DNA of 64,000 bases. Source: an uncultured Dokdonia sp. Lineage in GTDB: Bacteria; Bacteroidota; Bacteroidia; Flavobacteriales; Flavobacteriaceae. The stretch lies in assembly GCA_947503305.1 (NCBI GenBank), contig CANNDF010000003.1, positions 248,001 through 312,000 of the forward strand, written 5' to 3'. Both the position numbers and the translations under genes were made by a program. The notes under the pieces are model-generated. The model searched no databases. It was not told the origin of the DNA and worked only from the letters and a program-made list of their open reading frames with translations. Shown here in pieces: positions 11,640-64,000 of the stretch; the first letter of the stretch is position 1; each line of letters opens with the position of its first letter.

Positions 11640-11692
11640 AAGATGTATTTTTATTTTTTAGTAAATTAATTATAGAAACGTATAAAAATCTA

Positions 11693-12073: not shown

Positions 12074-12084
12074 GTATAAAATGC

Positions 12085-12945: not shown

Positions 12946-12970
12946 AGGCGGAGGATAAAGTAATTATATC

Positions 12971-13021
12971 TGAGCCTACTCTTGTAAAAGTATATGTTTA
13001 CTATTCACAAAAGCAGGCTCA
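12971..13021 (-). terminator. imperfect hairpin after gapA
   Basis: TGAGCCTACTCTTGT and ACAAAAGCAGGCTCA pair with two mismatches around a long loop, 10 bp after the gapA stop. No good T-tract follows on the minus strand, so this may be a processing hairpin instead of an intrinsic terminator. Confidence 0.4.
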
Positions 13022-13030
13022 ATATTATTT

Positions 13031-14035
<1,005 letters not shown>

Positions 14036-26458: not shown

Positions 26459-27697
26459 ATGAAAAAAATAACATTTTATATATGCATTATGCTTTGTGCC
26501 ATGTCAATACATGCACAAGAAAATCTGAATCTCGTATTCTATAATCTTCTTAATTATCCAGCAGCACCTCCTGCAAATAGAAATCAAATTCTTTCTGCTC
26601 TTATTCAAGAGATGGAACCCGATCTCTTTATGGTGTGTGAACTAGAATCACTCAATGGAGCAAATGAAATTCTGGATACAAGCCTCAATAGTGTAGATAA
26701 TGTATATAGCGCAGCTCCATATATAAACAATACATCTAGTGGATCTGATTTACAACAATTGCTTTATTATAATAATACACTTTTTGAGTTAGATCAAACA
26801 GATATAATTCAAACATCATTAAGAGATATTAATAGATATCGACTCAAATTACTTACCGAAGAATCCATATTTATAGAAGTATTTGTAGCACACCTTAAAG
26901 CAAGTCAAGGAGAAGAAAATGAAGAAAGACGATTAGAGATGGTAAATACTTTTACTACATACCTAGAAACTATTGACCCTGATGACCCCGTTATTTTTGC
27001 AGGAGACCTTAATCTATATAGGAGTACAGAAGCTGCATATCAAGAATTACTTGACCCAACAAATGCTGTTGTATTAAAAGACCCAATAGATACCGCTGGT
27101 AATTGGAATAGTAACCCATCTTTTGCAAGTGTACATTCACAAAGCACTAGAATAAGTAATAATGAGTTTGATGATTTTGGAGCTGGCGGCGGCTTAGATT
27201 CTAGGTTTGATTTTATTTTAATGTCTGAAAATTTATTTGAAACCGAAACCCCCATAACTTACGTAAATGATAGTTATGAGACCTATGGCAATAATGGTAA
27301 TTGTTATAATAATCGGATTGATGATTCAGATTGTTCTGGAATTTATAGCAGTACGGTACGAAATTTGTTATACCAAATGAGTGATCACTTACCTATTAGA
27401 GCTCAACTCCAAGTAAACTCAGAAACACTAGGTGTCAACGAGAATATAAAGGAGCAAGCCACATGGAAAATTATAGATAATGTAGCAGAGGATCAGATTG
27501 AGATTGCTTTCGCGAAAGCAGAAAATAAAGTGATTACAGTATTTATTTATGATCAAACTGGGCGTCTGATAACACAGATAGAGGTCGGCCAACAAACAAA
27601 ACTAATACTACCCATATCAAATTATGCAGAAGGACTGTATTATGTCACTTCGAATAATCGTAGTTTTGAACCCTTAAAATTTCTCAAGACATATTGA
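26459..27697 (+). CDS. secreted endonuclease/exonuclease/phosphatase-family protein with T9SS domain
   Basis: 412 residues. Signal peptide MKKITFYICIMLCAMSIHAQ, then an EEP fold with LVFYNLLNYP, the metal-binding Glu in MVCELESLNG, AGDLNLYRST, and the catalytic MSDHLPIRA. The last 75 residues form a T9SS sorting domain (VFIYDQTGRLI, YAEGLYYVTS, ending PLKFLKTY). It likely cleaves extracellular nucleic acid or phosphodiesters, for nutrient scavenging. Between catalytic core and sorting domain lies an exact copy of the dispersed palindrome, read as AFAKA. The next gene starts on its stop codon. Confidence 0.9.
   Translation: MKKITFYICIMLCAMSIHAQENLNLVFYNLLNYPAAPPANRNQILSALIQEMEPDLFMVCELESLNGANEILDTSLNSVDNVYSAAPYINNTSSGSDLQQLLYYNNTLFELDQTDIIQTSLRDINRYRLKLLTEESIFIEVFVAHLKASQGEENEERRLEMVNTFTTYLETIDPDDPVIFAGDLNLYRSTEAAYQELLDPTNAVVLKDPIDTAGNWNSNPSFASVHSQSTRISNNEFDDFGAGGGLDSRFDFILMSENLFETETPITYVNDSYETYGNNGNCYNNRIDDSDCSGIYSSTVRNLLYQMSDHLPIRAQLQVNSETLGVNENIKEQATWKIIDNVAEDQIEIAFAKAENKVITVFIYDQTGRLITQIEVGQQTKLILPISNYAEGLYYVTSNNRSFEPLKFLKTY
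27506..27519. repeat. exact GCTTTCGCGAAAGC palindrome inside the nuclease-like gene
   Basis: Exact 14-bp copy read in frame as A-F-A-K-A, in the linker between the EEP domain and the T9SS sorting domain. Confidence 0.9.
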
Positions 27698-30522
27698 AAA
27701 AAATTTTTAATTCTATACTGTTTTGTTGTTTAATCTATTCTGGAGTAGTAGCCCAAAATACAATTGCACTTAATGCACATCTTGTAGAAGAAGGAGATGT
27801 TATAGAGATTACCCAAAGGCTTAACTACTTAAATACAAGTAAGGACACTCTATCTTATATCTATCTTAATGATTGGGCACATAGTTTTTCTTCTAAGGAG
27901 ACACCTCTAGCTGCTCGTTTTGCTGAAGATTTTGAAAAAAAGGTACATCTCGCAAAAGACGAAGAGCGTGGTTTTACTAAAATGAAAACTATTTATGATG
28001 GCAAAGACTATTTACAATACATACGACTAGAAGGAGCACAAGATATTATTAAAGTAACCCTTAAAAAGCCTATACCACCAGGGGATTCATATTTTTTAAA
28101 ACTAGATTATAATGTCAAGCTTCCAAATGCTCGTTTTACAAACTATGGTGTTACAAAAAATAAAGACTATAATTTAAGATATTGGTATATCACACCTGCA
28201 ATCTATGATGGTGAATGGCAATATTATAGTAATAAAAACTTAGATGATCGTTACTATCCAAACAGTGATATTAAGATTACCTTTTCATACCCAAAAGACT
28301 ATTCTATCATTACCGATTTTGAAACTCGAATAGAAAACACCTCTTTTAACACCAATGAAAAAATTGCAATTCTTAATGGTAAAGATCGTATTAATCCAAG
28401 AGTATATCTTAGAAAAGACTCTGATTTTGAAAAAATAGAGACAGATTTCCTTACGCTACATACTAATATAGACGATAGACGTGTAGGAGGACCTATACGA
28501 GCTTTAATTGTAGATCGAATTGCGAGTTTTATGGAGAGGAATTTGGGTAAGTATCCACATAATACCTTGTTGATATCTGATATAGATTATAAAGAAAATC
28601 AAGTATATGGCCTCAATCAGCTTCCTAGTTTTATAAGACCCTTCCCAGATGGTTTTCAATATGAAATAAAACTAGTAAAGACTATCATAGGAAAATATGT
28701 AGATAATACATTACTTGTTAATCCTAGAATGGATAGATGGGTTATTGATGGTATTAAAGTATACCTCATGCAAACCTATATGGATGAGTTTTATCCTGAT
28801 CTTAAAGTTGCTGGAAATCTAGATAAATATTGGTTAGTTCGCCAGTTTTATTTATCAAAACTCAAGTTTAATGATCAGTATAACATTTTGTACATGAACA
28901 TAGCTAGGCTTAACCTAGATCAACCACTATCAAAACCATATGATTCGCTCATAAAATATAATGTTCAAATTGCAAATGCCTATAAAAGTGGTGCTGGTCT
29001 TGCATATTTAAATGATTTTATAGGAAATAATGCTATAAAAGAGGTTATTAAAGAATTTTATCAAAATAAAAATCTACAGCAAGGAATCAGCTCTGAAGAT
29101 TTTGAAAATTTGGTACGCAATGCAAGTGATAAAAATTTAGACTGGTTTTTTAATGAATACGTACATACCAGAAGACAGCTAGATTATAAGATCAAAAAGA
29201 CTCGTAGAGAAGGAGATTCTCTATATGTTACCATAAAAAACAAACGAAATAACCCAGCACCTATTTCTTTATATGGATTAAAAAATGAAGAAATTGTTTC
29301 AAAGACATGGGTAGAAAATATAGACAAGGAGAAAACAATAACACTTCCTGCAGATAGTGTAGATCAATTGGTATTGAATTATGAAAAAATAATTCCTGAG
29401 TATAACCTACGGGACAATTTTAAAAAACCAAATGCATTTTTAGGCCTTAATAAGCCTATACAACTTAAACTACTCCAAGATGTAGAAAACCCATCCAAGA
29501 GTCAGGCATTTATAGTCCCCGTAGCAGAGTTTAATGTATATGATGGTTTAAGTCCTGGTCTTAAATTATATAATAGCACAATACTACGCAAAAATTTTAG
29601 ATATAAAATAGAGCCTCAATACGGTTTAAAATCAAATGCATTAATAGGGTCTGCATCTATTTCATATACACACTTTCTAGAAGATAGTAAGCTATTTAGT
29701 TTCAGATATGGTATTTCTGGAAATCGATCTTCTTTTGGTCCAGATTTATTTTTTGAACGTATTATACCCTCTATAAGTTTTCAATTTAAGCCAAAAGACT
29801 TTAGAGCAAACAAAGGATCAAATCTATTTGCAAGACTCGTAAGTGTGCAACGAGATGAGGATTTTAGACAAGAATCTCAAGATCCAAATTACTCCGTATT
29901 TAATCTTAGGTTTTCTCATTTTGACAGAGCTATTATAAATACTATAAGTTGGAACACAGATCTTCAGTTTGCACGTGATTTTACCAAACTCTCTGCCACA
30001 TTCTTCTACAGACATCTATATCTTAACAACAGACAAGTTAACCTTAGATTTTATGCAGGAACCTTTCTAAGAAATAACACGAGAGATAATGGTGACTTTT
30101 TTAGTTTTGCACTTGATAGACCTACGGATTATCTTTTTGATTTTAATTATTATGGACGTTCTGAAGACAGTGGTATATTTAGTCAGCAATTTATTTTTGC
30201 AGAAGGAGGATTTAAGTCTCGATTACAGCCAAGTTTTGCAAATGAATGGATAACTACTATTAATGGAAGTACTACAATATGGAAATATATCTATGCATAT
30301 GGAGATGTAGGACTTGTAAAAAATAGATTCCAAGATCCAGAACCTGTTTATGATACGGGTATTCAAATAAGTATTCTAGATGATTATTTTGAACTTTTCT
30401 TTCCGGTATATTCTAATTTAGGCTGGGAAATTGCACAACCTAATTATGATCAAAAAATTAGATTTATCGTATCACTAGATATTGATACTGTCATTCGTTT
30501 GTTTAAAAGAAGGTGGTATTAA
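27694..30522 (+). CDS. M1-like (gluzincin-fold) protein lacking the zinc motif, with C-terminal beta-barrel
   Basis: 942 residues from a TTG overlapping the previous stop by 4 bp. A signal peptide (MKKIFNSILFCCLIYSGVVA) precedes an M1 aminopeptidase-like N-domain (LDYNVKLPNARFTNYGV). Where M1 enzymes have HExxH and a downstream NEG, this protein has KLVKTIIGKYVDN and WVIDGIKVYL, so zinc ligands and the catalytic Glu are absent. The last 330 residues are strand-rich with alternating aromatics and end in RRWY, as expected of an outer-membrane barrel. It is probably a non-catalytic surface or periplasmic protein tied to the outer membrane. Confidence 0.85.
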   Translation: MKKIFNSILFCCLIYSGVVAQNTIALNAHLVEEGDVIEITQRLNYLNTSKDTLSYIYLNDWAHSFSSKETPLAARFAEDFEKKVHLAKDEERGFTKMKTIYDGKDYLQYIRLEGAQDIIKVTLKKPIPPGDSYFLKLDYNVKLPNARFTNYGVTKNKDYNLRYWYITPAIYDGEWQYYSNKNLDDRYYPNSDIKITFSYPKDYSIITDFETRIENTSFNTNEKIAILNGKDRINPRVYLRKDSDFEKIETDFLTLHTNIDDRRVGGPIRALIVDRIASFMERNLGKYPHNTLLISDIDYKENQVYGLNQLPSFIRPFPDGFQYEIKLVKTIIGKYVDNTLLVNPRMDRWVIDGIKVYLMQTYMDEFYPDLKVAGNLDKYWLVRQFYLSKLKFNDQYNILYMNIARLNLDQPLSKPYDSLIKYNVQIANAYKSGAGLAYLNDFIGNNAIKEVIKEFYQNKNLQQGISSEDFENLVRNASDKNLDWFFNEYVHTRRQLDYKIKKTRREGDSLYVTIKNKRNNPAPISLYGLKNEEIVSKTWVENIDKEKTITLPADSVDQLVLNYEKIIPEYNLRDNFKKPNAFLGLNKPIQLKLLQDVENPSKSQAFIVPVAEFNVYDGLSPGLKLYNSTILRKNFRYKIEPQYGLKSNALIGSASISYTHFLEDSKLFSFRYGISGNRSSFGPDLFFERIIPSISFQFKPKDFRANKGSNLFARLVSVQRDEDFRQESQDPNYSVFNLRFSHFDRAIINTISWNTDLQFARDFTKLSATFFYRHLYLNNRQVNLRFYAGTFLRNNTRDNGDFFSFALDRPTDYLFDFNYYGRSEDSGIFSQQFIFAEGGFKSRLQPSFANEWITTINGSTTIWKYIYAYGDVGLVKNRFQDPEPVYDTGIQISILDDYFELFFPVYSNLGWEIAQPNYDQKIRFIVSLDIDTVIRLFKRRWY

Positions 30523-50469: not shown

Positions 50470-52191
50470 TTATTTTTTAATAAGCTTTATTGTTTTCTGA
50501 CCTTGCGCAGTAGCTACATTTGCAATGTAGATACCAGTTCTAAGATTAGACGCATTGATTTCATGTGTGTTAGTGTTAGGAGTTTCTACCATAACACGTC
50601 TTCCTAAGATGTCATATACTTCTACTGAAGTAATCAACTGTGTATCAGAAGAGATCATCCAACGATCGCTTGATGGATTCGGGAATACAGCAATGTTGAT
50701 AGCTGTAAATTCTTCTGTACTAAGAACGGTATTATTATGAAGATAGATATTATCTAAAAATATTGTTCTAGAACCATTCTCAGCTCCTGCAACAGTTAGT
50801 ACAAACTGTCTTAAAGCATCTCTTTGTTGTGTCGCATCACCAAAGTCAAAATCTGCAAGTGGTAAGTCTATAGATACCCATTCTCCAAATGTGTTAACTG
50901 GGTTTGTTAAACCAAATACCGATGTTTCACCAGCATCACCAACATGATTAGACAATGCAGGGTTTGCAATTAAACCAACCGATAATGTTGTATCAATCCA
51001 GTAATCCATATGGAAATGTGTCATTGCAGTATTATCTACAATAGTACCCCAATCTACTAATAAGAACTGTGGGTCTGGTTGTGTAGTTCCTACTTGTTGC
51101 GTGTTATCACCTTCAATTTGTATTTCTTCAATGTCTTGAGTTCCTACACCAAATGCACCAAATACCACATCTGGTTGATTAGTGTATGCATCACTATAAA
51201 TAGAAAATACAGCACTTGCGTCTCTTGCAGGAGGCGTAGGAGCTGCTACTGTTGGCATCGGATCATCACCTCCACCAGTACCTAGTACTAAAGAAACGTT
51301 ATCTATTACTACTACCCCTGTATCTGCACCCATATCAAATAATACGCGGCTATCTGCTGAGCTAAAATTAGCAACAAGTTCTAAAGTAAAAGTTTGTGTT
51401 ACATCAGTAACAGTAACTTCTTGACTTTGATTTGTAAATGGATCTACAAAAAGTCCTATTCCTGCAATCATAGTACGACTTCCTGTATCTGTAGAAGCTT
51501 CAAAAGATAATGTAAACGTTTGACCTTCTGTCATTGCAATTCCTCTCTGACTTAAATTTACAGCAAACGGGTCTCCAGCAGTAGCTACATCTACAAAGTT
51601 AAAGCTGTTTCCACCATCTGTTTGTACATTAAATCCATTTCCTTCCCATACAACCATTCCTTGTTCAAAATCACCATTATCTAGTAACTCATCACCTCCA
51701 CCTGTTTCTTCATTTAGAGTAAGAGTAACATTATCAATCACTACAATTCCTGTATCTGCTCCCATATCAAATAATACGCGACTATCCGCAGAACCAAAAT
51801 TTGCAACAAGTTCTAAAGAAAATGTTTGAGTTACATCAGTTACAGTAACTTCTTGACTTTGGTTTGTAAAAGGATCTACAAAAAGGCCTATTCCTGCAAT
51901 CATCGTACGACTTCCTGTATCTGTAGAAGCATCAAATGTTAATGTAAACGTTTGACCTTGTGTAATATCTATTCCTCTCTGACTTAAATTTACAGCAAAA
52001 GGATCTCCAGCAGTGGCAACATCTACAAAATTAAAACTGTTTCCACCATCTGTTTGTACATTAAATCCATTTCCTTCCCATACAGTCATACCTCCTTCAA
52101 AGTCGCCATTGGCAAGTAAATTTTCTTGAGCCACCATGACAGCTCCACTAAGTAAAGCTAAGAAGCTAAATAATAAAGTAATTTTTTTCAT
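50470..52191 (-). CDS. T9SS-secreted protein with two CBM4/9-like modules and a third binding domain
   Basis: 573 residues with signal peptide MKKITLLFSFLALLSGAVMVAQ. Two near-identical modules (about residues 25-160 and 170-305) begin NGDFE.GM.VWEGNGF, as in CBM4/9 jelly rolls. The third domain (about 320-480; PTPPARDASAVFSIYSDAYTNQPD) resembles a binding domain that I remember from flavobacterial laminarinases. A T9SS sorting domain ends the protein (VFPNPSSDRW, LRTGIYIANV, KTIKLIKK). No catalytic residues are seen, so it is probably a secreted or cell-surface glycan-binding protein. The modules also occur in the binding lipoprotein of this locus. Confidence 0.88.
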   Translation of the reverse strand: MKKITLLFSFLALLSGAVMVAQENLLANGDFEGGMTVWEGNGFNVQTDGGNSFNFVDVATAGDPFAVNLSQRGIDITQGQTFTLTFDASTDTGSRTMIAGIGLFVDPFTNQSQEVTVTDVTQTFSLELVANFGSADSRVLFDMGADTGIVVIDNVTLTLNEETGGGDELLDNGDFEQGMVVWEGNGFNVQTDGGNSFNFVDVATAGDPFAVNLSQRGIAMTEGQTFTLSFEASTDTGSRTMIAGIGLFVDPFTNQSQEVTVTDVTQTFTLELVANFSSADSRVLFDMGADTGVVVIDNVSLVLGTGGGDDPMPTVAAPTPPARDASAVFSIYSDAYTNQPDVVFGAFGVGTQDIEEIQIEGDNTQQVGTTQPDPQFLLVDWGTIVDNTAMTHFHMDYWIDTTLSVGLIANPALSNHVGDAGETSVFGLTNPVNTFGEWVSIDLPLADFDFGDATQQRDALRQFVLTVAGAENGSRTIFLDNIYLHNNTVLSTEEFTAINIAVFPNPSSDRWMISSDTQLITSVEVYDILGRRVMVETPNTNTHEINASNLRTGIYIANVATAQGQKTIKLIKK

Positions 52192-52550: not shown

Positions 52551-55358
52551 TTATAGATTGATGAAGTAGTCATTAAGGTTTATATCCCTTGATAAGTCTA
52601 GTTTTTTTCTAAGTCTGTAGCGTTTTATCTCTACACTACGTGATGAGATATTTAATAATGGCGCGATCTCTTTTGATGACATATTTAACCGTAAATATAC
52701 ACATAGCTTTAAATCATTAGCTGTTAATGATGGATGCTTATCTTTCACTTTTCTAAAGAAATCTTTATCCGCATGATTAAATGCTTCTTCAAAAAAGTTC
52801 CAATCCTCTTCATTTTCAATGGTCTTATCTACCAGGGAGATAATAGTATGAATATCATCAATTTTTTCTGCTTTTAAAAGTGCACTTTTAATTCCATTTA
52901 ATGTTTTATTTTTATTAATCATGTTCATAGTAGAAACTGCTAATTCTCTATTACGTGCATCTATATCTTGTTTGAGATTTGCATTATTTAATTCTACAAT
53001 TTGTTTTTCACTCTCTAATGCCTTAAGTTCCATATCTCTTTTTGTACGGTCAAGTGCTAGTTCTTGTTGTCTCTTATAATATCGTTTATAAAACCAATTT
53101 AGCCCCATAAACAATAAAATAGTAAGAATGATATATATAGCTATACTTATATTAGACAAATACCAAGGACGTTCAATAGTAAATGCAAATCGCACTTCAT
53201 TAATAGTCTCTTTTCCTCCTATGCGAGCCTTCGCCTTAAATGTATATGAATTATGAGGTAAATTTTCGAAATGTATACTAGAATTAGATGTCCATGGGCT
53301 CCATGAATCATATAGTCCCTCTAATAAATAAGAATATTCTGTCGTTAGAAACTTATCATATTCAGGAACACTAAAGGAAAAATTAAAATTATTATCATAT
53401 GATGAGAATTCTGGATTCTCCGCATACGAAACTAATCTAGGCATTTTGCTTAACCTGTGTACTGCAATAGAATTAAGATTAATCCTATACCCTTGAGTAG
53501 TATTTTCATTTTTAGAGATATCTACTGTAATATAGCCATTAGAAGTCCCTAGTAAATACTCATTCTCATTCATATTAACAAAGCTTTCATAGCCTTCTAC
53601 AGTATTGCGTAAATTAAACGGAATAGAGATTTTTTTTAGAGAATATGCTCCATCAAGTTTATCTCGACTAATTCTAATAAGATTATCTTTTGTAAATGCC
53701 CATAATTTGTCGCGATCTTCAATTAATTTTCCTGTAACAAAGGCATCGTCATCATCGAATATACTACTTAACTTTTCTTCACGTTTAAAATCATTGCTTC
53801 CATTGTCATATGCATAAATACCTCCTTCATTAGCATAAAAAATAGTTTCACCTAATCTCGATAAACTCGAATGCTCACCAACAGTAGCCGTTGTATGTTT
53901 AAAAACATCTAAAGCATCATAATACAATGAATCCGTTTTTATTTCAAACACTCCTTTATATTCATGACTTACAAGAATTTTATTTGTAGTTGTTGTTTCA
54001 AAATGCTTAGATGAATTAATGAAATTTTTAATTTTATTTCTAATTTTCCATCCCGCCGATGTTTTCTCTAGTACATAAAGTCCTGTATAATTCCCTTGAA
54101 GGAGAAGATTGTCTCTTCCCGGAATTTTTTTAATATCCCAGGTCCCTTCTATATCCCCTATCAATCGTTGTTTATCATCTTCTATTATATAAGTCCCATT
54201 ATTATGTCCACAGAAAAGGGTTCCATCTATAAGACGTAAATTCCATACTTGTCCCTCAGTACCTGACATCCTTACAAAGTCTGACTTTGAGTTCTTTTGC
54301 TTATAAAACAACCCTTGATTTGTTCCTAAATACATATAATCATTTACAACAGCAGATGTATATATAGTCCCTAGCACTCCACTTACATCTTCATATTGTC
54401 TAAAAGGGCTTTGGCTATTTATACAATCTATCCCTGCATCTAAGCCAACCCATAAATTTTGATCTTTATCTTCTAATAGCGCAAGAGCTGTATTATTTGT
54501 TAAACCACTCTCTTGCTTTATCTGATACTCAAATTCCCCATCTTTAGATAGTTGGACTATTCCATTTTCAATAGTTCCCAAGGCTATAGATTTATTTTTA
54601 CGCTGAATTGCGCTATAAACAGTAAATTGTTTTACCAGTTCATTATTCACTACATCCCAAGGCATAACATTTTGATTATCTATACTATAGAACCCATCAT
54701 TGGCTGTAATACCAACTAGCAGATTTTCTATTCTAAATAGATTAATTAATCGTTCTTGAATAAGTATAGGATGTGAACTAAAAATAGTAGGGACTCCTTG
54801 TTCTATTGTATATAGCCCTTTCCCTTTTACTTGAAATATTAAATCATCTTCAATTAAAAACAATCGTACTACTTGACCATCAGGTGTGATGGTTTGTGTT
54901 TTAGTATTTATAGTATCATGTATATAAATACGATCTAAGGATTGAAAAAGTATATACTGCCCATAATGTTCTATATTCCAAATATGCTCATCTTCAATCA
55001 TTGTAATACCTTCCCTGTTTACAATTGATATATATTGTAATACTCCCGTTTTATCCTCTTCCCATATACCAAAGTCCATATACGCTCCGGTATATACCTT
55101 ATCTTCTACAGCTTTAACTCCGCGAAGAATTGTTCCATTAGGAGAAGGATACAAATTCCAATGTGCACCATTAAAAACTAATAGTCCTCTATTATTTGCA
55201 ACATAAATTGTTTTGTCCGGAGCTTGACTAAGCATCCAGTTTTGGTTATCAGCATTATAAACGTTGGGTGGATAATTTACGACTGGTGGCAGTCCTTGCC
55301 CATATAAAAAAAGGAAAGGGAACATTAAAAAAAATAAGCGTGCTATACGTTGTATCAT
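52551..55358 (-). CDS. triple-tyrosine (Reg_prop/Y_Y_Y) membrane regulator with LuxR-type HTH
   Basis: 935 residues. Signal peptide (MIQRIARLFFLMFPFLFLYG), then repeated two-component-regulator propeller units (QDKDQNLWVGLDAGIDCI; GTSNGYITVDI), a Y_Y_Y domain (EYSYLLEGLYDSWSPWTSNSSIHFENLP), a membrane helix near 735-755, a coiled coil, and a LuxR/GerE-type HTH (LTANDLKLCVYLRLNMSSKEIAPLLNISSRSVEI in parts). No kinase or receiver domain exists. It probably senses oligosaccharide in the periplasm and acts directly on DNA. Divergent from the glycosidase-barrel gene, it is the likely regulator of this locus. Confidence 0.9.
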   Translation of the reverse strand: MIQRIARLFFLMFPFLFLYGQGLPPVVNYPPNVYNADNQNWMLSQAPDKTIYVANNRGLLVFNGAHWNLYPSPNGTILRGVKAVEDKVYTGAYMDFGIWEEDKTGVLQYISIVNREGITMIEDEHIWNIEHYGQYILFQSLDRIYIHDTINTKTQTITPDGQVVRLFLIEDDLIFQVKGKGLYTIEQGVPTIFSSHPILIQERLINLFRIENLLVGITANDGFYSIDNQNVMPWDVVNNELVKQFTVYSAIQRKNKSIALGTIENGIVQLSKDGEFEYQIKQESGLTNNTALALLEDKDQNLWVGLDAGIDCINSQSPFRQYEDVSGVLGTIYTSAVVNDYMYLGTNQGLFYKQKNSKSDFVRMSGTEGQVWNLRLIDGTLFCGHNNGTYIIEDDKQRLIGDIEGTWDIKKIPGRDNLLLQGNYTGLYVLEKTSAGWKIRNKIKNFINSSKHFETTTTNKILVSHEYKGVFEIKTDSLYYDALDVFKHTTATVGEHSSLSRLGETIFYANEGGIYAYDNGSNDFKREEKLSSIFDDDDAFVTGKLIEDRDKLWAFTKDNLIRISRDKLDGAYSLKKISIPFNLRNTVEGYESFVNMNENEYLLGTSNGYITVDISKNENTTQGYRINLNSIAVHRLSKMPRLVSYAENPEFSSYDNNFNFSFSVPEYDKFLTTEYSYLLEGLYDSWSPWTSNSSIHFENLPHNSYTFKAKARIGGKETINEVRFAFTIERPWYLSNISIAIYIILTILLFMGLNWFYKRYYKRQQELALDRTKRDMELKALESEKQIVELNNANLKQDIDARNRELAVSTMNMINKNKTLNGIKSALLKAEKIDDIHTIISLVDKTIENEEDWNFFEEAFNHADKDFFRKVKDKHPSLTANDLKLCVYLRLNMSSKEIAPLLNISSRSVEIKRYRLRKKLDLSRDINLNDYFINL

Positions 55359-55825: not shown

Positions 55826-58800
55826 ATGAAACATTATTTGTTAAGACTATTTCTTCTTTTGGCTTCAACATCATTATTAGCCCAAGCCAATAAAGTCACA
55901 ATCTCAAGTGCTGATGATGGCATGAGATTAATAGTAGATGGACAAGAATTTATGGTAAATGGGATGAACTGGGATTATATTCCTATTGGTCAGACAATAG
56001 CCACAACATCCTATCAATTTTGGAATGAATCAGATGATATCATCAAAGCTGCACTAGACGCAGAAATGTCTCTTTTAAAGAATATGGGAGTAAATGCAAT
56101 ACGTCAATATGTAGGTGTCAAGCCTAAATGGGTGCAATACATTTATGAAAATTATGGTATTTATACGATGATTAATCACGCTTTTGGACGTTATGGCCTT
56201 ACTATAGATGGAGCATGGGAGCCTATTACAGATTATTCTGATCCTCGGGTAAAAGATATTCTTTTAAAAGAGACTACTGAAATGGCCAGAGAATTTAAAG
56301 ATACCCCAGGTATATTAATGTTTTTACTTGGTAATGAAAATAACTACGGGCTTTTTTGGGATGGAGCCGAAACAGAAGATATTCCGGAAGCAGATAGTAG
56401 AACAAAGCCTAGAGCGAGAGCAATGTATAAACTCTTCAATGATGCAACTCTAGCCATGAAACAAATAATTACTGATCAACCAATTGCAATCTGTAATGGA
56501 GATTTACTTTTCTTAGATATTATAGCCGAAGAATGTAAAGATGTAGATATATATGGTACAAATATGTATCGAGGAGTTTCATTTGGTGATGCTTTTGAGA
56601 GAGTTAAAAATGAGTTTGGAAAACCAATCCTATTTACTGAATTTGGATCAGATGCCTTTAATGCTGTTCAAAATCAAGAAGACCAAAAAGCTCAAGCATA
56701 TTATATGGTTGGAAATTGGAAAGAAATTTATGCTAATGCTGCTGGTTTAGGAAAAACTGGAAATTCTTTAGGTGGGTTTACATTTCAATTTAGTGATGGG
56801 TGGTGGAAATATGGTCAAACGACAAATTTAGATATCCATGATAATAATGCTTCATGGGATAATGGTGGATATGAATTTGATTTTGTAGAAGGCGAAGATA
56901 ATATGAATGAAGAGTGGTTTGGTATTTGTGCCAAAGGCCCTACGAATTCAAAAGGCTTATATACGCTATATCCTAGAGCAGCATATTATGCTCTCAAAGA
57001 AGCACATCAATTAAATCCGTATGCGCTAGGGACTACAGCTACTTCTTTAGAAAGCCATTTTAACAATATCCAGATAATTGACGCTGTATTAAGAGCACGT
57101 GGTGATAAAGCAGCATCTGGAAGTATAGGCGGCAGTAAAATAAAAATAAGCTCATTAAGAGCTGAATTTACGACCTTTAATACGGGAGGTACTCGTGTAA
57201 CAACTCCAGAAAATCCAAATCCAAATGAGGTCGCTTTTCCGGATCAGCTAGGCTTTGATAATATGGAATCTTATTATATTGGAGTTGAAGCAAATCCAAC
57301 ACCAGGATTAAGAGCAAACGTAGTAACAAATATATTAGGGAATGTAGCTGGAAATCCCATAGATGAAATTTTCTTTGAAAATAGAGGACGCCCTGTCGAT
57401 GTTAATTCTGATAATGGAGAGGTAACACTTGCTGATAATAATAGAGTACAGGTATACCAAGCAGAATTTGATTGGAACACCAAATATGCAAATGTTAAAG
57501 GGTTTTATCGAACTGGGCATTATCACTGGGGATATGAAGGAGATTTCTTTGGTTTATATCCTGAAGCCAACTACGGGCCAAATATAGATTTGTATAATGG
57601 TTTAGCTCCTTTTGGTTTTGAATTTGAAGCCAAAAAAGAATTAAAAGGGCTTAAAGTAGCTTTTGGACCAGAATTATGGTGGGGAGCAAACCCAGCAGTA
57701 TTGGTTAAATACAATAAGCAATTTGGAAAATATAATGTAGCAGGAATTTTTCATGAAGATATTGCAGATCCTGGTGCAGGTGTCTCTTCTGTAGCAATAC
57801 CGCAACCAAGAACAAGAAGGGCTACTGCGTATATAGGACGTAAGTTTGGAAAATTTGATGTAGAATTAGGAGGTATTTGGGCTGGAAATCCTTTAAATGG
57901 ACGAGAATACCAAGTAATAGAACAAGTCTCTACTACAACACAGGTGCTTGTAAATCAAGTAGAAGGAAGCGATAACTGGGGAGGGAAACTAAAAATAAAA
58001 TATACAGGAGGTAAATTTAATTGGTATGCACAAACAGCAGCTCAAGGTATTGTCGCAAATGGAGGTGCAGATTTTACTAAAACATTTACAGGATGGAGAT
58101 TAAAAGATAGTGGTAGTGGTAATCAATATAATTTTTTAACAGGACTTACATATACTATAGGAAATCTTCAAATCGCACCTAACTTTTTATGGCAAGAACC
58201 TTTAGTAAATCCAATCCCTATAGGTGCACCAGCACCAGCAAGATCTAGAAACATTATTGATGATCCATTTGTGGTAAGAGCAAATAGACGAACTACTGCT
58301 GGAGAACTCCTATTAACATATGATCCGACACCAGGATCATGGTTTTATGAATGGGATAATGATAGAGCAGAAGATGCAAAATTTGCAGCTAGTTTAGGAT
58401 TCGTATATCGTTACCTTCCTACTACGCAAGATGCTGCCATTGGATTCTTTGGAAATAGTCGTGTGCCAGTAGCTTTTGCTTCAGCTCCATCTGCCGAAGA
58501 CTTATGGGAAGTATATGGTAGAGTTGTTTCAAAAATAACTCCTGATTTCGGATTCATTGGTAATTTTTACGGAGGAAATGGACAGGCAAATGGAAGTGAT
58601 GATAGAGTCATCCATAGATATGGAGCAGACGTTCGTATGATTTATAACAAAATCAAGTTAATGACTGAAGTTAAAATTGATGATTGGGGACCTTTTGATT
58701 TTCATAGAGATTTCAACCTTACCTTTCCATTTCAATTTAAAGTTGACTTATCAACAACCGTTGGTAAACCAGATTGGTTTATTTTACCAAATACCCGCAT

Positions 58801-58936
58801 TGGTATAAGATATACATGGCGTTCTTTAGACAATTTCTCACCGAGATTTGAATTTCAGGACCCAATTGATCTAGGATTTCCAAATGGAAATGAGTGGGAA
58901 ATCAGAACATACGTACATATTAACATTGGAAAATAA
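55826..58936 (+). CDS. clan GH-A glycosidase fused to a predicted outer-membrane beta-barrel
   Basis: 1036 residues with signal peptide MKHYLLRLFLLLASTSLLAQ. Residues 25-410 form a TIM-barrel glycosidase: MSLLKNMGVNAIRQYVGV, acid/base Glu171 in LLGNENNYGLFW, VDIYGTNMYRG, nucleophile Glu272 in KPILFTEFGSDA. The layout resembles GH2 catalytic domains and fungal GH72 beta-1,3-glucanosyltransferases; family assignment is open. Residues from about 415 to the end are strand-rich, with alternating aromatic/polar residues and repeated strand-turn blocks (FGKYNVAGIFHEDIAD; FDVELGGIWAGN), as in porin-type barrels. The fusion would put a glucan-cleaving or -transferring domain at an outer-membrane pore. 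It is first in a row of four or more genes. Confidence 0.85.
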   Translation: MKHYLLRLFLLLASTSLLAQANKVTISSADDGMRLIVDGQEFMVNGMNWDYIPIGQTIATTSYQFWNESDDIIKAALDAEMSLLKNMGVNAIRQYVGVKPKWVQYIYENYGIYTMINHAFGRYGLTIDGAWEPITDYSDPRVKDILLKETTEMAREFKDTPGILMFLLGNENNYGLFWDGAETEDIPEADSRTKPRARAMYKLFNDATLAMKQIITDQPIAICNGDLLFLDIIAEECKDVDIYGTNMYRGVSFGDAFERVKNEFGKPILFTEFGSDAFNAVQNQEDQKAQAYYMVGNWKEIYANAAGLGKTGNSLGGFTFQFSDGWWKYGQTTNLDIHDNNASWDNGGYEFDFVEGEDNMNEEWFGICAKGPTNSKGLYTLYPRAAYYALKEAHQLNPYALGTTATSLESHFNNIQIIDAVLRARGDKAASGSIGGSKIKISSLRAEFTTFNTGGTRVTTPENPNPNEVAFPDQLGFDNMESYYIGVEANPTPGLRANVVTNILGNVAGNPIDEIFFENRGRPVDVNSDNGEVTLADNNRVQVYQAEFDWNTKYANVKGFYRTGHYHWGYEGDFFGLYPEANYGPNIDLYNGLAPFGFEFEAKKELKGLKVAFGPELWWGANPAVLVKYNKQFGKYNVAGIFHEDIADPGAGVSSVAIPQPRTRRATAYIGRKFGKFDVELGGIWAGNPLNGREYQVIEQVSTTTQVLVNQVEGSDNWGGKLKIKYTGGKFNWYAQTAAQGIVANGGADFTKTFTGWRLKDSGSGNQYNFLTGLTYTIGNLQIAPNFLWQEPLVNPIPIGAPAPARSRNIIDDPFVVRANRRTTAGELLLTYDPTPGSWFYEWDNDRAEDAKFAASLGFVYRYLPTTQDAAIGFFGNSRVPVAFASAPSAEDLWEVYGRVVSKITPDFGFIGNFYGGNGQANGSDDRVIHRYGADVRMIYNKIKLMTEVKIDDWGPFDFHRDFNLTFPFQFKVDLSTTVGKPDWFILPNTRIGIRYTWRSLDNFSPRFEFQDPIDLGFPNGNEWEIRTYVHINIGK

Positions 58937-58942
58937 AAAGTC

Positions 58943-61234
58943 ATGAAAAAGATAATCACAAAAAGAACATTAAGCTATTTGATGTCTGCGCTATTCCTAT
59001 TTATTAATTATAGCTGTCAACCAGATGATAATAATTTAGAAGATGCCACATTTCCAAATATCGCAGAAGTCTTTATAGATACTTTTAGTGCAGGTTTGCA
59101 GTATGATGCTTTTGGAACATCTAGAGTAACTGCATTTTCTGTAGACACAGATATTGTCTTTCAAGGAAGCGCAGCCATGCGATTTGACATCCCAAATACA
59201 GATGACCCTCAAGGAGGGTTTGCGGGAGGTGTTTTCTCTACTGCAGTAGGTAGAGACTTAACGAGTTATAATGTATTAACATTTTATGCAAGAGCATCAC
59301 GTGGAGAAACAATCAATCAAATAGGTTTTGGATTAACCTTTGAAGGAGAAGTTTTTAGAACTCAAGTTGATGGTTTACAGGTAGGTACAGAATGGCAAAA
59401 ATACTTTATTCCTATTCCTAATGCTGCTAGACTCACGCAAGAAAGAGGAATGCTATGGTTTGCAGAAGCAGCCGATGACGGTGAAGCCTACCAACTATGG
59501 CTTGATGAAGTAAAATTTGAAAACCTAAACACAATTATCCAAGAAAGTGCTACAATTCTTAATGGAGTAGATCAAATAACTGCAGCATCATCTGGAAGTA
59601 CAATTACTATAGACGGTACATCTGCCTCATATAACCTTCCATCAGGGGTTGTACAAAGCGTTACTGCAACAGCTCCTTATTTTGACTATACCTCTTCAAA
59701 TGAGTCTATCGCAACTGTAGATGAATTTGGTGTTGTCACAGTTTTAAGTGAAGAAGGATCAACAATCATAAGCGCTACATTAAATGGTGTTGAAGCTGAC
59801 GGTTCTATAACCTTTATGGAGGTAGATTCTTCAGGTAATGTAGATGATTCTGATGCTACAGAAATAGGATTACCGCTAGGGTTTGAATCTACTTCTTTAA
59901 ATTATAATCCTGTAGGTTTTGAAGGTGCGGTACCATCTGTAGCTGCAAATCCTGTTGTAGGGGGATTAAATAATAGTTCGAATGTTTTAAGATCTCTAAA
60001 AAGTGAAGGATCCATATTCTTTGCAGGGCAATTTATTGATTTAGATGTACCCGTTGATTTCTCAACAAATCAAATCATTAGTGCTTTAGTATTATCACCA
60101 AGCGCAGGAGCTCCTGTAAGAGTTGCATTTGAAAACAGTCAAGATCCAAGTACTCAAATTAGAGTGGATATAAGTACTACTGTAAGTAATCAATGGGAAG
60201 AACTTATTTTTGATTTCACTCCTCTTATTAATCCTGCTATCGTATATGATAGAATGGTCATTATTTTTGATATCGATGAAGCAAATCCAAGTCCTGGAGA
60301 TGGTTCTGTGTATTTTATAGATGATATCCAATTAACCGATGGTACTTCAACAAATGATCCTCCAGGTGATAATTTATTATCAAATGGCGATTTTGAAGAA
60401 GGAATGACTGTATGGGAAGGAAATGGGTTTAATGTGCAAACAGAAGGAGGAAACAGCTTTAATTTTGTAGATGTTGCCACTGCTGGAAATCCTTTTGATG
60501 TAAACTTAAGTCAACGAGGATTAGCAATAACCGAAGGTGATACTTACACGCTAACCTTTGACGCATCTACAGATGTAGCAACTGGAAGCCGTGTTATGAC
60601 TGCGGGTATAGGATTGTTTGTAGATCCGTTTACAAATCAAAGTGTTGAGGTTAATCTTACGGATGCAACTCAAACATTCACTTTTGAACTTGTAGCCAAC
60701 TTTAGTTCTACAGATGGTCGCGTATTATTTGATATGGGAGCAGATACAGGCATTGTAGTTATTGATAATGTATCACTAGTATTATCTGATGGTGGCGGTA
60801 ATACTGGCGGAGATAATGAATTATCAAATGGCGATTTTGAAGAAGGAATGACCGTATGGGAAGGAAATGGATTTAATGTGCAAACAGAAGGAGGAAACAG
60901 CTTTAACTTTGTAGATGTAGCTACTGCTGGAAATCCTTTTGATGTAAACCTAAGTCAACGAGGGTTAGCCGTTACAGAAGGGCAAACCTTTACATTAACT
61001 TTTGACGCTTCTACAGACACAGCAACAGGAAGTCGTACGATGATTGCAGGAATAGGACTCTTTGTAGATCCGTTTACAAATCAAAGCCAGGAAGTGACAA
61101 TAACCGATACAACACAAACATTTACTTTAGAACTTGTAGCCAACTTTAGTTCGGCAGATGGTCGTGTATTATTTGATATGGGAGCAGATACAGGTGTTGT
61201 TGTTATTGATAATGTATCATTAACATTGAATTAA
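58943..61234 (+). CDS. multidomain glycan-binding lipoprotein with Big2 and two CBM4/9-like modules
   Basis: 763 residues. A lipobox (FLFINYSCQPDD) predicts a lipid anchor. Next come a jelly-roll binding domain (about 40-195; YNVLTFYARAS, YQLWLDEVKF), a Big2 Ig-like domain (about 205-295; ATVDEFGVVTVLS), a second jelly roll (about 305-465; YFIDDIQLTDG) and two CBM4/9-like modules (from 477 to the end) almost identical to those of the T9SS protein. No catalytic residues or T9SS domain are seen. It probably acts as the surface glycan-binding protein of the locus. It starts 6 bp after the glycosidase-barrel gene, so the two are co-transcribed. Confidence 0.87.
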   Translation: MKKIITKRTLSYLMSALFLFINYSCQPDDNNLEDATFPNIAEVFIDTFSAGLQYDAFGTSRVTAFSVDTDIVFQGSAAMRFDIPNTDDPQGGFAGGVFSTAVGRDLTSYNVLTFYARASRGETINQIGFGLTFEGEVFRTQVDGLQVGTEWQKYFIPIPNAARLTQERGMLWFAEAADDGEAYQLWLDEVKFENLNTIIQESATILNGVDQITAASSGSTITIDGTSASYNLPSGVVQSVTATAPYFDYTSSNESIATVDEFGVVTVLSEEGSTIISATLNGVEADGSITFMEVDSSGNVDDSDATEIGLPLGFESTSLNYNPVGFEGAVPSVAANPVVGGLNNSSNVLRSLKSEGSIFFAGQFIDLDVPVDFSTNQIISALVLSPSAGAPVRVAFENSQDPSTQIRVDISTTVSNQWEELIFDFTPLINPAIVYDRMVIIFDIDEANPSPGDGSVYFIDDIQLTDGTSTNDPPGDNLLSNGDFEEGMTVWEGNGFNVQTEGGNSFNFVDVATAGNPFDVNLSQRGLAITEGDTYTLTFDASTDVATGSRVMTAGIGLFVDPFTNQSVEVNLTDATQTFTFELVANFSSTDGRVLFDMGADTGIVVIDNVSLVLSDGGGNTGGDNELSNGDFEEGMTVWEGNGFNVQTEGGNSFNFVDVATAGNPFDVNLSQRGLAVTEGQTFTLTFDASTDTATGSRTMIAGIGLFVDPFTNQSQEVTITDTTQTFTLELVANFSSADGRVLFDMGADTGVVVIDNVSLTLN
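60370..61231 (+). repeat. tandem pair of near-identical CBM4/9-like module sequences
   Basis: Two copies of about 415 bp (60370-60786 and 60818-61231) repeat almost base for base through NGDFEEGMTVWEGNGF and GRVLFDMGADTG. Two further copies lie inverted in the T9SS binding-protein gene (about 51271-51684 and 51712-52119). Confidence 0.85.
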
Positions 61235-61360: not shown

Positions 61361-62221
61361 ATGAAAAAAGGAATTTTAAAAAGTGCATTATTTGCATGTA
61401 TGCTAATAGCCGTTTGGGCATGTACTGATGATGAAGGTAATGATATAGGTGCCTCAAATCTTACATTAGTATTTGAAGATAATTTTAATGGTGAAGCAGG
61501 ACAATCTATCAATACTGATTTTTGGAATTTTGATATTGGTACTGGTCAAAATGGCTGGGGTAATCAAGAATTACAATATTATACAGATCGCCCAGAAAAT
61601 GTCTCTTTAGATGGGGAAGGAAATATGGCAATTACTGCCCGTAGAGAATCTTTCCAAGGTTCTCCTTTTACTTCGGCTAGAATAAATACTAGAGATAAAG
61701 TAGAACATCAATACGGTCGTTTTGAAGCTCGTATTCAAATGCCTGGAGGACGTGGTGTATGGCCAGCATTCTGGATGTTAGGAAGTAACATTGAAACCGA
61801 GCCAGATGATGATCCTGCTACAATAGTTTGGCCTTTTGTAGGAGAAATAGATATTACCGAAATGAGAGGTCAAGAACCTTTCAGAACTATAGGAAGTATA
61901 CATGGTCCAGGATATTCTGGAGGAGCTGCAATATCTGGTGAATATGATCTTGAAAATGATCGTTTTGATGCAGGGTTTCACGAGTATGCTATCGAATGGA
62001 ATCCAGATTTTATAGACTACTTTATTGATGGTATCCGCTTTAATAGAATTACTAAAAGTGATATCCCAGAAGGAGAAGATTGGGTTTTTGATGATCAACC
62101 CTTCTTTTTATTATTAAATGTTGCCGTAGGAGGTACTTTTGTAGGTTTCCCCGTTGATGCAACTCCGTTACCACAAACAATGCTTGTGGATTATGTACGT
62201 ATTTACGAAATCGGAAACTGA
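61361..62221 (+). CDS. GH16 endo-beta-1,3-glucanase-like lipoprotein (laminarinase)
   Basis: 286 residues. The lipoprotein signal ends at Cys21 (LIAVWACTDD). The GH16 catalytic motif is GEIDITEMRG with Glu162 as nucleophile, Asp164 and Glu167 as acid/base; the preceding GGRGVWPAFWMLG and the N-terminal GWGNQELQYYTDRPENV suit the laminarinase (GH16_3) type. EDWVFDDQPFFLLLNVAVGG and LVDYVRIYE close the jelly roll. It would cut beta-1,3-glucan internally at the cell surface. Specificity for mixed-linkage glucan is not excluded. Confidence 0.95.
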   Translation: MKKGILKSALFACMLIAVWACTDDEGNDIGASNLTLVFEDNFNGEAGQSINTDFWNFDIGTGQNGWGNQELQYYTDRPENVSLDGEGNMAITARRESFQGSPFTSARINTRDKVEHQYGRFEARIQMPGGRGVWPAFWMLGSNIETEPDDDPATIVWPFVGEIDITEMRGQEPFRTIGSIHGPGYSGGAAISGEYDLENDRFDAGFHEYAIEWNPDFIDYFIDGIRFNRITKSDIPEGEDWVFDDQPFFLLLNVAVGGTFVGFPVDATPLPQTMLVDYVRIYEIGN

Positions 62222-62464: not shown

Positions 62465-64000
62465 ATGACAGAACAAACCATCTATATAGGAAATAAACGT
62501 GCTACTTTTAATGGTAATGAAATTAAAGGAGAGCTCATAAATATTGATAACGAGGTTTATTACAAGATTTCTAATAGTGATCAAATGAGACCTTTCTTTA
62601 TGAGCCTCATTAGTGATTCTAATCATTGGATGTTCATAGCTAGTAATGGAGGGTTATCTGCAGGGCGGAAAAATTCGGATTATTCATTATTTCCCTATTA
62701 TACAGACGATAAAATTACTGAAGCTAGTGATACTACAGGTAGTAAAACACTATTAAAAGTATCTAAAGATGGGAAAGTATTCTTATGGGAACCTTTTTCA
62801 AATAAATATGAAGGTGTTTATACAATAACTAGAAATCTGTACAAGAATAGTTATGGTAACAAAGTTGTATTTGAAGAACACAATAAAGATTTAGGCCTTA
62901 CCTATAGATATCAATGGAATACTAGTGATGTATTTGGTTTTGTAAAAAAATCTACACTTATAAATGATCAAGATCGTACTGTACAAGTAACAGTACTTGA
63001 TGGGTTACAGAATATTGTTCCTCATGGTGTAGGTGAAGATGTACAAAAAACAAGCAGTAACTTAGTAGATGCCTACAAGCGTAATGAACTTATAGCAGAT
63101 TCTGGGGTCGGGTTATTTGCTCTAAGTGCAATAATTGTGGATAAAGCTGAGCCAAGTGAAGCTTTAAAAAGTAATGTGGTATGGTCATTAGGTATAGATG
63201 ATCCAAAATACCTATTATCGTCACTACAACTAGATGCTTTTAGACGTGGAGAAGATATTCAACAAGAAACAGATATAAAAGCAGAACGCGGAGCCTATTT
63301 TATTTGTTCAACTATTGAGCTAGATGCAAATAATCAAAAAGAATGGATGCTCCTAGCTGATGTCAATAAAACGATAAGTGCCATTATTGAGATTTCTGAA
63401 AAAATAAAAACAACTCCAGACCTTATGGAGTCAGTTCAAGAAGATATTGATAAAGGTACGACACACCTTTTAGAACTTGCAAGTGCTTCTGATGCAATGC
63501 AATTAAGTGAAAATAAACTACGAAATACTAGACATTTTTCAAATACGCTCTTTAATATTATGAGAGGAGGTATTTTTGATAATAACTATCAAATAGAAAA
63601 GTGGGATTTCAAAGCTTATATAGAAAAAGCCAATTGCATTGTTTTTAAAAATGCCCTGTCTATTATTAATGCATTGCCAGATGAATTCTCACTGTCAGAT
63701 TTAAAAATAATTGCCTCTCAGAGTGATGATAATCATTTTAAACGATTATGTTTAGAATACATGCCTTTAAAGTTTAGTAGAAGACATGGAGATCCTAGTA
63801 GACCTTGGAATAAGTTTTCTATTAATACACGAAGCGAAATTGATGGTTCAAAAGTATTAGATTATCAAGGTAACTGGAGGGATATCTTTCAAAATTGGGA
63901 AGCGCTAGCACTAGCCTATCCTGAATTTATTGAAAGTATGATTCACAAATTCCTCAATGCAACTACTTTTGATGGTTATAACCCCTATCGTGTTACAAAA
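62465..64000 (+). CDS. putative GH149/GH161-type beta-1,3-glucan phosphorylase (5' part; cut by window edge)
   Basis: 512 residues are visible before the window ends, with no stop. There is no signal peptide, so the protein is cytosolic. The N-terminus (FFMSLISDSNHWMFIASNGGLSAGRKNSDYSLFPYYTDDK in parts) and the block RRHGDPSRPWNKFSI...YQGNWRDIFQNWEALALAYP...FLNATTFDGYNPYRV recall GH149 and related GH94/GH161 inverting phosphorylases, which act on beta-1,3-glucan oligomers to give glucose-1-phosphate. Expected full length is over 1000 residues. The catalytic Asp would lie beyond the edge. Position after a GH16 laminarinase supports the call; without a search it stays probable. Confidence 0.75.
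   Translation, partial: MTEQTIYIGNKRATFNGNEIKGELINIDNEVYYKISNSDQMRPFFMSLISDSNHWMFIASNGGLSAGRKNSDYSLFPYYTDDKITEASDTTGSKTLLKVSKDGKVFLWEPFSNKYEGVYTITRNLYKNSYGNKVVFEEHNKDLGLTYRYQWNTSDVFGFVKKSTLINDQDRTVQVTVLDGLQNIVPHGVGEDVQKTSSNLVDAYKRNELIADSGVGLFALSAIIVDKAEPSEALKSNVVWSLGIDDPKYLLSSLQLDAFRRGEDIQQETDIKAERGAYFICSTIELDANNQKEWMLLADVNKTISAIIEISEKIKTTPDLMESVQEDIDKGTTHLLELASASDAMQLSENKLRNTRHFSNTLFNIMRGGIFDNNYQIEKWDFKAYIEKANCIVFKNALSIINALPDEFSLSDLKIIASQSDDNHFKRLCLEYMPLKFSRRHGDPSRPWNKFSINTRSEIDGSKVLDYQGNWRDIFQNWEALALAYPEFIESMIHKFLNATTFDGYNPYRVTK

Follow-up and report, generated by a model that had tools for sequence, protein, structure and literature searches.

Few sugars in the sea are as abundant as laminarin, and searches for glycan gene clusters usually rely on susCD. 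For the phosphorylase family GH149, occurrence is reported both in polysaccharide utilization loci (PULs) of Bacteroidetes and in carbohydrate-active enzyme clusters without susCD (PMC5827456). Variant-1 laminarin PULs are described as GH149-GH0-GH30_1-GH17, and one of them, from the NS4 clade, is noted as having no susCD (PMC10108472). Related loci are reported to be laminarin-induced in Formosa (PMC6246565; PMC13188888), and the laminarin loci of Muricauda list an upstream "GH2 beta-glycosidase" (PMC13188888). Among the enzymes, BuGH158 is described as a separate lipoprotein with a C-terminal immunoglobulin-like (Ig-like) domain, encoded in a locus with SusC/SusD (PMC7157763), and FbGH17b of Formosa as an MFS::GH17 fusion of the inner membrane (PMC6246565). 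Here we analyse a 64,000-nucleotide stretch (the window) from an uncultured Dokdonia sp., positions 248,001 to 312,000 of contig CANNDF010000003.1 in assembly GCA_947503305.1 (4.26 Mb, 57 contigs). One of its genes (55826..58936, + strand) encodes a signal peptide, a GH158-like clan GH-A domain and a predicted outer-membrane beta-barrel in a single chain of 1036 residues, as judged from the open reading frame (ORF), its homologues, AlphaFold2 and Foldseek.

The best explanation for this gene and its neighbours, and one that we hold to be fairly probable, is a SusCD-independent import channel for beta-1,3-glucan (laminarin) with a periplasmic hydrolase. A first-pass annotation of the DNA had suggested an alternative uptake device, and this is still the best-supported reading, the pore function being a prediction. 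The frame runs uninterrupted from an ATG start through 1036 codons, and its N-terminal MKHYLLRLFLLLASTSLLAQ resembles a signal peptide when the translation is judged by eye (residues 1-20, 55826..55885, + strand). A scan of contigs for relatives, from which 80 of 244 were kept, gave proteins aligning mostly over residues 1 to about 1036, with 62-88% identity in the best segment; Dokdonia pacifica is the nearest among those listed (88%). The kept relatives span Flavobacteriales, Saprospirales, Cytophagales and Bacteroidales, with two outside these orders (one Calditrichia and one Thermoanaerobaculia metagenome-assembled genome), where misbinning is possible. Together with 32 loci from a genome search, 29 of which have only about 1.5 kb of flank, the 80 make 112 further loci with the same fusion, the window's own copy (L001) excluded; some are perhaps from the same species, and part of them duplicate or nearly duplicate one another (two identical pairs were seen). 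The family is thus conserved at the sequence level and not peculiar to one genome. ORF, models and homologues all agree with the earlier description of a single frame joining signal peptide, TIM barrel and strand-rich half, and models and homologues likewise with an enzyme coupled to an outer-membrane barrel in one polypeptide.

The enzyme half (residues 21-430, 55886..57115, + strand) is a TIM barrel of clan GH-A followed by C-terminal helices, as assigned from Pfam, AlphaFold2, Foldseek, a profile search and stand-alone homologues. The Pfam model Glyco_hydro_2_C matches with an E value of 9.6e-6 and 25.4 bits (cut-off 21), partially, over profile positions 38-218 of 302, and a glycoside hydrolase catalytic-core model of Pfam also matches the first 300 residues, below its threshold. 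The full-length AlphaFold2 model was built on a 77-row alignment (mean predicted local distance difference test, pLDDT, 73.6; predicted template modelling score, pTM, 0.56) and places helices after the TIM barrel up to residue 432, then hairpins to the C-terminus. The predicted acid/base is Glu171 (56336..56338, + strand), directly after Asn170, and the predicted nucleophile is Glu272 (56639..56641, + strand). All three residues are invariant in 77/77 aligned sequences, and the two glutamates, earlier proposed as a catalytic pair about 100 residues apart, are separated by 101. When the full model is compared with the PDB by Foldseek, the six best-ranked chains all belong to GH158 endo-laminarinases (E 2.3e-12 to 2.0e-10; 12-14% identity over the aligned folds), after which come GH2 enzymes interspersed with outer-membrane barrels. 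Searched against PDB sequences, the family profile puts GH158 entries first and second with marginal E values (0.0044 and 0.016), and a single-sequence search gives no GH158 match. The GH2 N-terminal sugar-binding and Ig-like domains have no Pfam match, the TIM domain following directly on the signal peptide. A C-terminal Ig-like domain as in BuGH158 is absent from the model, in which helices (385-432) lead to the membrane barrel. The first-pass annotation had found the enzyme as close to GH72 as to GH2, and had taken this to mean that it may remodel glucan instead of degrading it. With E values up to 1 allowed, neither Pfam nor NCBIfam gives a GH72 match, nor is one among the top 50 Foldseek folds, and such a likeness is not supported. 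Because of this, and because the top folds are GH158 and GH2, degradation is likelier than remodelling, transglycosylation being possible as well. The enzyme assignment is well supported; catalysis is predicted from sequence and model.

The second half is a predicted outer-membrane beta-barrel of about 24 strands (residues 439-1035, 57140..58930, + strand), assigned from AlphaFold2, Foldseek, amphipathicity, loop pattern and conservation. The border between the halves, first put at residues 410-415 (codon 410), is moved to near residue 430, since the stand-alone homologues stop just past helix 405-432. Both the full-length model and a model of the barrel alone (pLDDT 72.5, pTM 0.71) consist of hairpins across the entire C-terminal part. 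For the barrel-only model, Foldseek gives 322 PDB matches at E <= 0.001, of which the 50 that were listed all belong to outer-membrane proteins; barrels among the Foldseek matches include MOMP, chitoporin, BtuB, ZnuD, Cir and AlgE. In Pfam, no match extends beyond the first 300 or so residues of the window protein, and 77 barrel halves scanned singly share no common family, with three single-member matches at E 0.05-0.09. Hydrophobicity alternates between the inward and outward positions of the strands (1.41, against a shuffled mean of 0.69 and a maximum of 1.08 in 1000 shuffles; 0.66 for the TIM-barrel strands by the same measure). Model and sequence thus combine amphipathic strands, an alternation of turns and loops, a C-terminal strand and the fold of an outer-membrane protein. 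The porin-like pattern noticed earlier is upheld by both models, by Foldseek with each and by amphipathicity, and, within the limits of modelling and comparison, a soluble fold of jelly rolls or propellers is excluded. No TonB plug matches at the fused gene, which is not among the TIGR04056 matches either, and a SusC or other TonB-dependent receptor is ruled out on the missing plug and SusC score. The outer-membrane class of the barrel is well supported; its role in transport is suggested by the model.

With 24 membrane strands assigned by hand from the DSSP output of the models, and hairpin 694-711 counted as a loop, the odd-numbered connections have 19, 36, 33, 3, 18, 29, 26, 30, 29, 7, 11 and 19 residues, and the even-numbered ones 2, 3, 6, 2, 2, 2, 2, 20, 2, 2 and 12. 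This alternation of short and long (one-sided p 0.0003) gives reasonable support to a predicted topology of 24 strands with both termini in the periplasm, as is usual for outer-membrane proteins. It would most simply place the enzyme in the periplasm as well, at the periplasmic mouth of the pore. The long periplasmic-side connections 833-852 (conservation 0.88) and 979-990 (0.78) are candidate contacts with the enzyme domain.

Lipoprotein signals bear on the same question. Acidic residues at +2 to +6 past the lipobox Cys are described as a feature of the lipoprotein export signal of Bacteroidetes (PMC5080379). A simple pattern, a few of whose CBM4 and GH16 hits are false ones inside the signal peptide, finds a lipobox Cys in 44/80 CBM4, 54/78 GH16, 24/31 GH17 and 13/19 GH30 proteins of these loci. 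At least two acidic residues stand at +2 to +6 in 35 of the 44 CBM4 and 45 of the 54 GH16 cases, and in 0/24 GH17 and 3/13 GH30 cases. This sequence pattern fits CBM4 and GH16 proteins outside and GH17 and GH30 proteins inside. The enzyme half also occurs by itself, and 5 of 13 such stand-alone enzymes have an N-terminal lipobox-like Cys by eye; four of the five have fewer than two acidic residues in these positions, and L113 has two, a pattern in keeping with a periplasmic enzyme.

These data bear on a different arrangement, in which the TIM domain lies outside in autotransporter-like fashion and the barrel serves for anchoring or secretion. A soluble domain N-terminal to a C-terminal barrel is what such a surface enzyme would have, and the model places helices 405-413 and 417-432 immediately ahead of the barrel. 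Classical autotransporters (type Va), however, have a 12-stranded C-terminal barrel, and about 24 strands are predicted here from the DSSP of the models. The loop pattern moreover places the N-terminus in the periplasm, and four of the five lipoprotein versions of the stand-alone enzyme have no acidic export-type motif, unlike most CBM4 and GH16 lipoproteins of these loci. We thus consider a surface enzyme unlikely.

The distribution of the fusion was followed in a phylum sample of 395 genomes and a family sample (Flavobacteriaceae) of 397. With the full-length query, 47/395 genomes of the phylum sample match at E <= 1e-5; for four of these the match is distant (30-32% identity), and among full-length copies the lowest identity is 55%. 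A barrel profile matches 35/395 genomes of the same sample, in 33 of them within a frame of at least 1028 residues; the other two have broken copies behind the same enzyme. A free-standing full barrel occurs in none of the 395 genomes; besides the broken copies there is one 99-residue fragment, on a second contig of genome G204, which also has a fused copy. The enzyme domain matches 87/397 genomes of the family sample at E <= 1e-50, and 80 of these matches lie in a frame of at least 872 residues. The fused protein is carried by many marine and soil bacteria, apparently as an alternative to their customary uptake systems for algal beta-glucans such as laminarin.

The 13 usable stand-alone enzymes are 52-66% identical to the domain of the window. 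In a tree of about half of the fused loci (61 fused rows, 27 of them with 7.5 kb on both sides), they fall at several places within the fused proteins, and well-supported branches force at least six changes of architecture; the tree was made by a quick method with Shimodaira-Hasegawa-like approximate likelihood-ratio (SH-aLRT) support only, and the number of changes alone does not separate gain from loss. L001 and L140 were dropped from it, as were L119, L122, L125 and L127 (contig edge or broken) and the shorter duplicates L116, L118 and L123. That the fusion arose from an ancestral stand-alone enzyme is not favoured, because the stand-alone enzymes nest at several places in the fused tree. 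In genome G119 (C314, L133), a stand-alone enzyme is followed by a stop codon and then by the first part of a barrel, a remnant of 93 profile positions, so that barrel loss is documented at least there. Genome G796 has both a stand-alone and a fused copy, on different contigs (L126, L134).

The gene behind the enzyme changes with the architecture. A CBM4 gene lies directly downstream in 57/59 fused loci with a readable neighbour (unreadable in L076, L104 and L172) versus 0/13 stand-alone loci, where GH149 comes next in 9/13. The two misses, L058 and L074, are an artefact of the ORF filter, neighbour clustering placing CBM4 next in both. In six phylogenetically independent pairs from the tree, barrel and CBM4 are lost together in 5-6 and the opposite is seen in none (median p 0.031, up to 0.0625); the CBM4 lipoprotein therefore follows the presence of the barrel, not that of the enzyme. 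Read from the sequences, this linkage fits the pattern expected of a channel and its surface binding partner. The barrel itself has pore-facing positions that are more conserved than lipid-facing ones (0.82 versus 0.67, n=141 each, p 3e-9). The predicted extracellular loop 563-595 (57512..57610, + strand), a candidate constriction or ligand loop, has a mean conservation of 0.92. Three more such loops are conserved, 619-621 (0.98), 741-766 (0.90) and 955-965 (0.96); the remaining eight range from 0.58 to 0.79.

This pattern can be set against a second alternative, an inert anchor, in which the barrel has no specific conductance and serves only to hold a periplasmic glucanase at the outer membrane. 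The enzyme persists without barrel in several lineages, in some as a lipoprotein, and tethering is thus replaceable. A barrel of some 600 residues with a median identity of 63% among relatives, a conserved lumen and four conserved loops nevertheless exceeds the needs of an anchor, and the CBM4 partner is lost together with the barrel. Tethering alone is in our view rather improbable.

The genes around the fusion point to beta-1,3-glucan. Downstream and on the same strand lie a CBM4 lipoprotein of 763 residues (58943..61234), predicted to be surface-exposed and the partner of the barrel (Pfam CBM_4_9, adjacency, co-loss, acidic residues past the lipobox Cys), and a GH16 lipoprotein (61361..62221), by Pfam and its own acidic residues a predicted surface endo-beta-glucanase, which also scores on SKN1/KRE6 in Pfam. 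Then comes the 5' part of a GH149 beta-1,3-glucan phosphorylase (62465..64000, + strand; whole gene L111:1465-4938, 1157 residues), matched by the equivalog model NF058639 with 1814.7 bits (cut-off 1150), which supports a beta-1,3-glucan setting. Past the window, GH17, an endo-1,6-beta-glucanase-like GH30, an MFS::GH17 fusion and another GH17 follow in the same orientation, so that all members of a GH149-type laminarin cluster are present (GH149, GH17, GH30, GH16, MFS::GH17). The MFS sugar symporter::GH17 protein (775 residues, L111:7968-10295, contig C3) is encoded 6.5 kb downstream of the GH149 start, about 5 kb beyond the end of the window; one cluster thus carries predicted transporter-enzyme fusions for both membranes. 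On the other side lies a divergent regulator with propeller, Y_Y_Y and LuxR-type helix-turn-helix domains (52551..55358, - strand; Reg_prop exceeds its cut-off, and the remaining models score below threshold). Neighbour clustering of 82 loci (the 80 relatives, the window and its own copy L001) returns the same gene set, a member of the regulator family adjoining 55 of them. Where each flank of a fused locus measures at least 7.5 kb (51 loci), a CBM4 gene is downstream in 51/51, a GH16 is present in 51/51 and a GH149 in 42/51, and a SusC/SusD match is found in 3/51, one of these being a 185-residue piece 7 kb off. Over all fused loci, the CBM4 gene is downstream in 110/112; L049 reaches the contig end, and L109 has the CBM4 gene upstream instead. 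A promoter and terminator scan gave promoter-like sites at chance level (33 found versus 34.7 expected). Adjoining the regulator is a gene (50470-52191, - strand) for a protein that contains CBM4 and ends in a type IX secretion tail; in some relatives, members of its similarity cluster are likewise encoded upstream and on the minus strand. Farther off, at 27694-30522 (+ strand), the window encodes a 942-residue protein with no Pfam match at E 0.001.

SusC, SusD and the TonB plug have no match in the window's stretch of contig C3. Elsewhere in the genome, away from the locus, two genes score above the SusC cut-off, and one SusD gene is found by two SusD models, paired with SusC. This pair (L173:2286-8950) adjoins a tandem of two FG-GAP/ASPIC-UnbV proteins, each about 1100 residues long (9035-13818), and is not next to any recognised sugar enzyme. 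The earlier remark that the locus has no visible SusC/SusD holds in these SusC, SusD and plug searches of the genome. Strictly, a polysaccharide utilization locus includes a susCD pair, and this locus has none.

Two further alternatives have less in their favour. The proteins could export or remodel an exopolysaccharide or a cell-envelope glucan, with a GH72-like enzyme or an AlgE-like exporter: AlgE is among the Foldseek matches, the GH16 protein also scores on SKN1/KRE6, and a GH17 of the related Muricauda locus is reported to be a transglycosylase (PMC13188888). The missing GH72 match speaks against this, as do the family searches of the locus proteins, which gave a sugar symporter, a phosphorylase and enzymes of glucan degradation but no glycosyltransferase or synthase, and the laminarin induction of related Formosa loci (PMC6246565; PMC13188888); such a role is very improbable. 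Genes joined by a sequencing error, a possibility that the first-pass annotation had itself raised, are ruled out because 112 more loci carry the same fusion, and with nothing found in its favour an artefact of this or any kind, including a chance barrel-like pattern, has a negligible chance.

For the SusCD-independent import channel, a sequence of events can be proposed. The CBM4 lipoprotein would bind glucan at the surface, and the GH16 lipoprotein would shorten it there. The fragments would then cross the barrel of about 24 strands, whose lumen and inward-folded loops are conserved. At its periplasmic mouth the attached GH158-like domain would attack the incoming chain and so prevent back-diffusion. 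Periplasmic GH17 and GH30, the inner-membrane MFS::GH17 protein and cytoplasmic GH149 would complete the breakdown. What the sequences show directly is the conserved fusion, the gene neighbourhood, a sequence pattern of barrel type, the invariant catalytic residues and the joint loss of barrel and CBM4 gene; topology, the side of the lipoproteins, transport, substrate and catalysis are what we infer in this scheme.

Several points weigh against it. The TM-scores of the barrel are 0.16-0.43, and therefore the barrel class is supported but no particular relative. AlphaFold confidence is moderate for both models, on an alignment of close relatives, and the strand count from the DSSP of the models is hand-made. 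Free hydrophobic exchange on the lipid face partly explains the excess conservation of the pore face. A SusC/SusD-type match lies within 9 kb in 6/112 fused loci; fused barrel and SusCD are thus not strictly exclusive. SusC/SusD is near 5/59 fused versus 5/13 stand-alone loci, a difference that is not significant in the paired test, and this count is weak since the flanks of about 1.5 kb in 29 of the 32 genome-search loci among the 112 are too short for SusC/SusD. A strict swap of the fused barrel for SusCD had been suggested by the stand-alone loci of G304 and G104, where a SusC/SusD pair and GH16 precede the enzyme, and was dropped on these counts. Of the five stand-alone matches, those in L128 and L129 are weak and hit receptors of about 840 residues, and in L124 SusC/SusD lies on the opposite strand, beyond a regulator.

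More tentatively, and with slightly less than an even chance in our judgement, the import channel can be generalised to an enzyme-coupled channel: a large passive pore without TonB plug, at whose exit a beta-glucanase consumes the substrate and so makes uptake one-way, and in which a CBM4 lipoprotein replaces SusD. Across much of Bacteroidota, such a device would be an ancient importer that exists alongside SusCD and has repeatedly been lost or given up for other routes.

If import by this route is confirmed, a conserved chain of pore and enzyme would be the outer-membrane entry point for many susCD-free clusters, overturning the assumption that such glycan clusters have no outer-membrane gate of their own. 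It would also offer a testable case of uptake powered by hydrolysis and not by TonB energy, and a large barrel family outside any Pfam model would gain a name. In the Muricauda myxillae locus L058, the fused gene has the regulator on one side and CBM4 and GH16 genes on the other; because of this position, the Muricauda "GH2 beta-glycosidase" is very probably the fused gene, and its annotation in the laminarin loci (PMC13188888) would be corrected. The "GH0" of variant-1 PULs is likely to be the fused gene too.

As a whole, the locus belongs to a marine laminarin type that is already published: with the variant-1 PULs of Formosa and Muricauda it shares GH149, GH30, GH17, GH16, MFS and a LuxR-type regulator, although typical members have susCD and this one does not. 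Locus type and gene as an enzyme are thus already known, and the barrel on the enzyme is apparently unreported: a literature search, which did not extend to supplements or subscription papers, turned up no fusion of a glycoside hydrolase with such a barrel, and the published accounts of related loci consulted here mention none on this enzyme. For the enzyme half, GH158 (BuGH158, PDB 6PAL; GH158(Pro), 9ORO series) is the best match in fold and profile. It shares the clan GH-A Asn-Glu with a second Glu and the beta-1,3-glucan setting (PMC7157763), with marginal sequence similarity (profile E 0.0044), and here a barrel follows the TIM domain. For the barrel half, chitoporin and passive sugar porins (PDB 7VU2, 7VTZ) are sugar channels and fold matches, but they are smaller (435 residues), carry no enzyme, and no sequence relation to the present barrel was found. 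SusC/SusD is likewise an outer-membrane channel encoded beside a surface glycan-binding lipoprotein; the present barrel has no TonB plug and no SusC family match, and its lipoprotein is of CBM4 type instead of SusD. Finally, FbGH17b also unites a transporter and a glucanase in one chain, in the inner membrane, whereas the fused protein described here is predicted to do so in the outer membrane.

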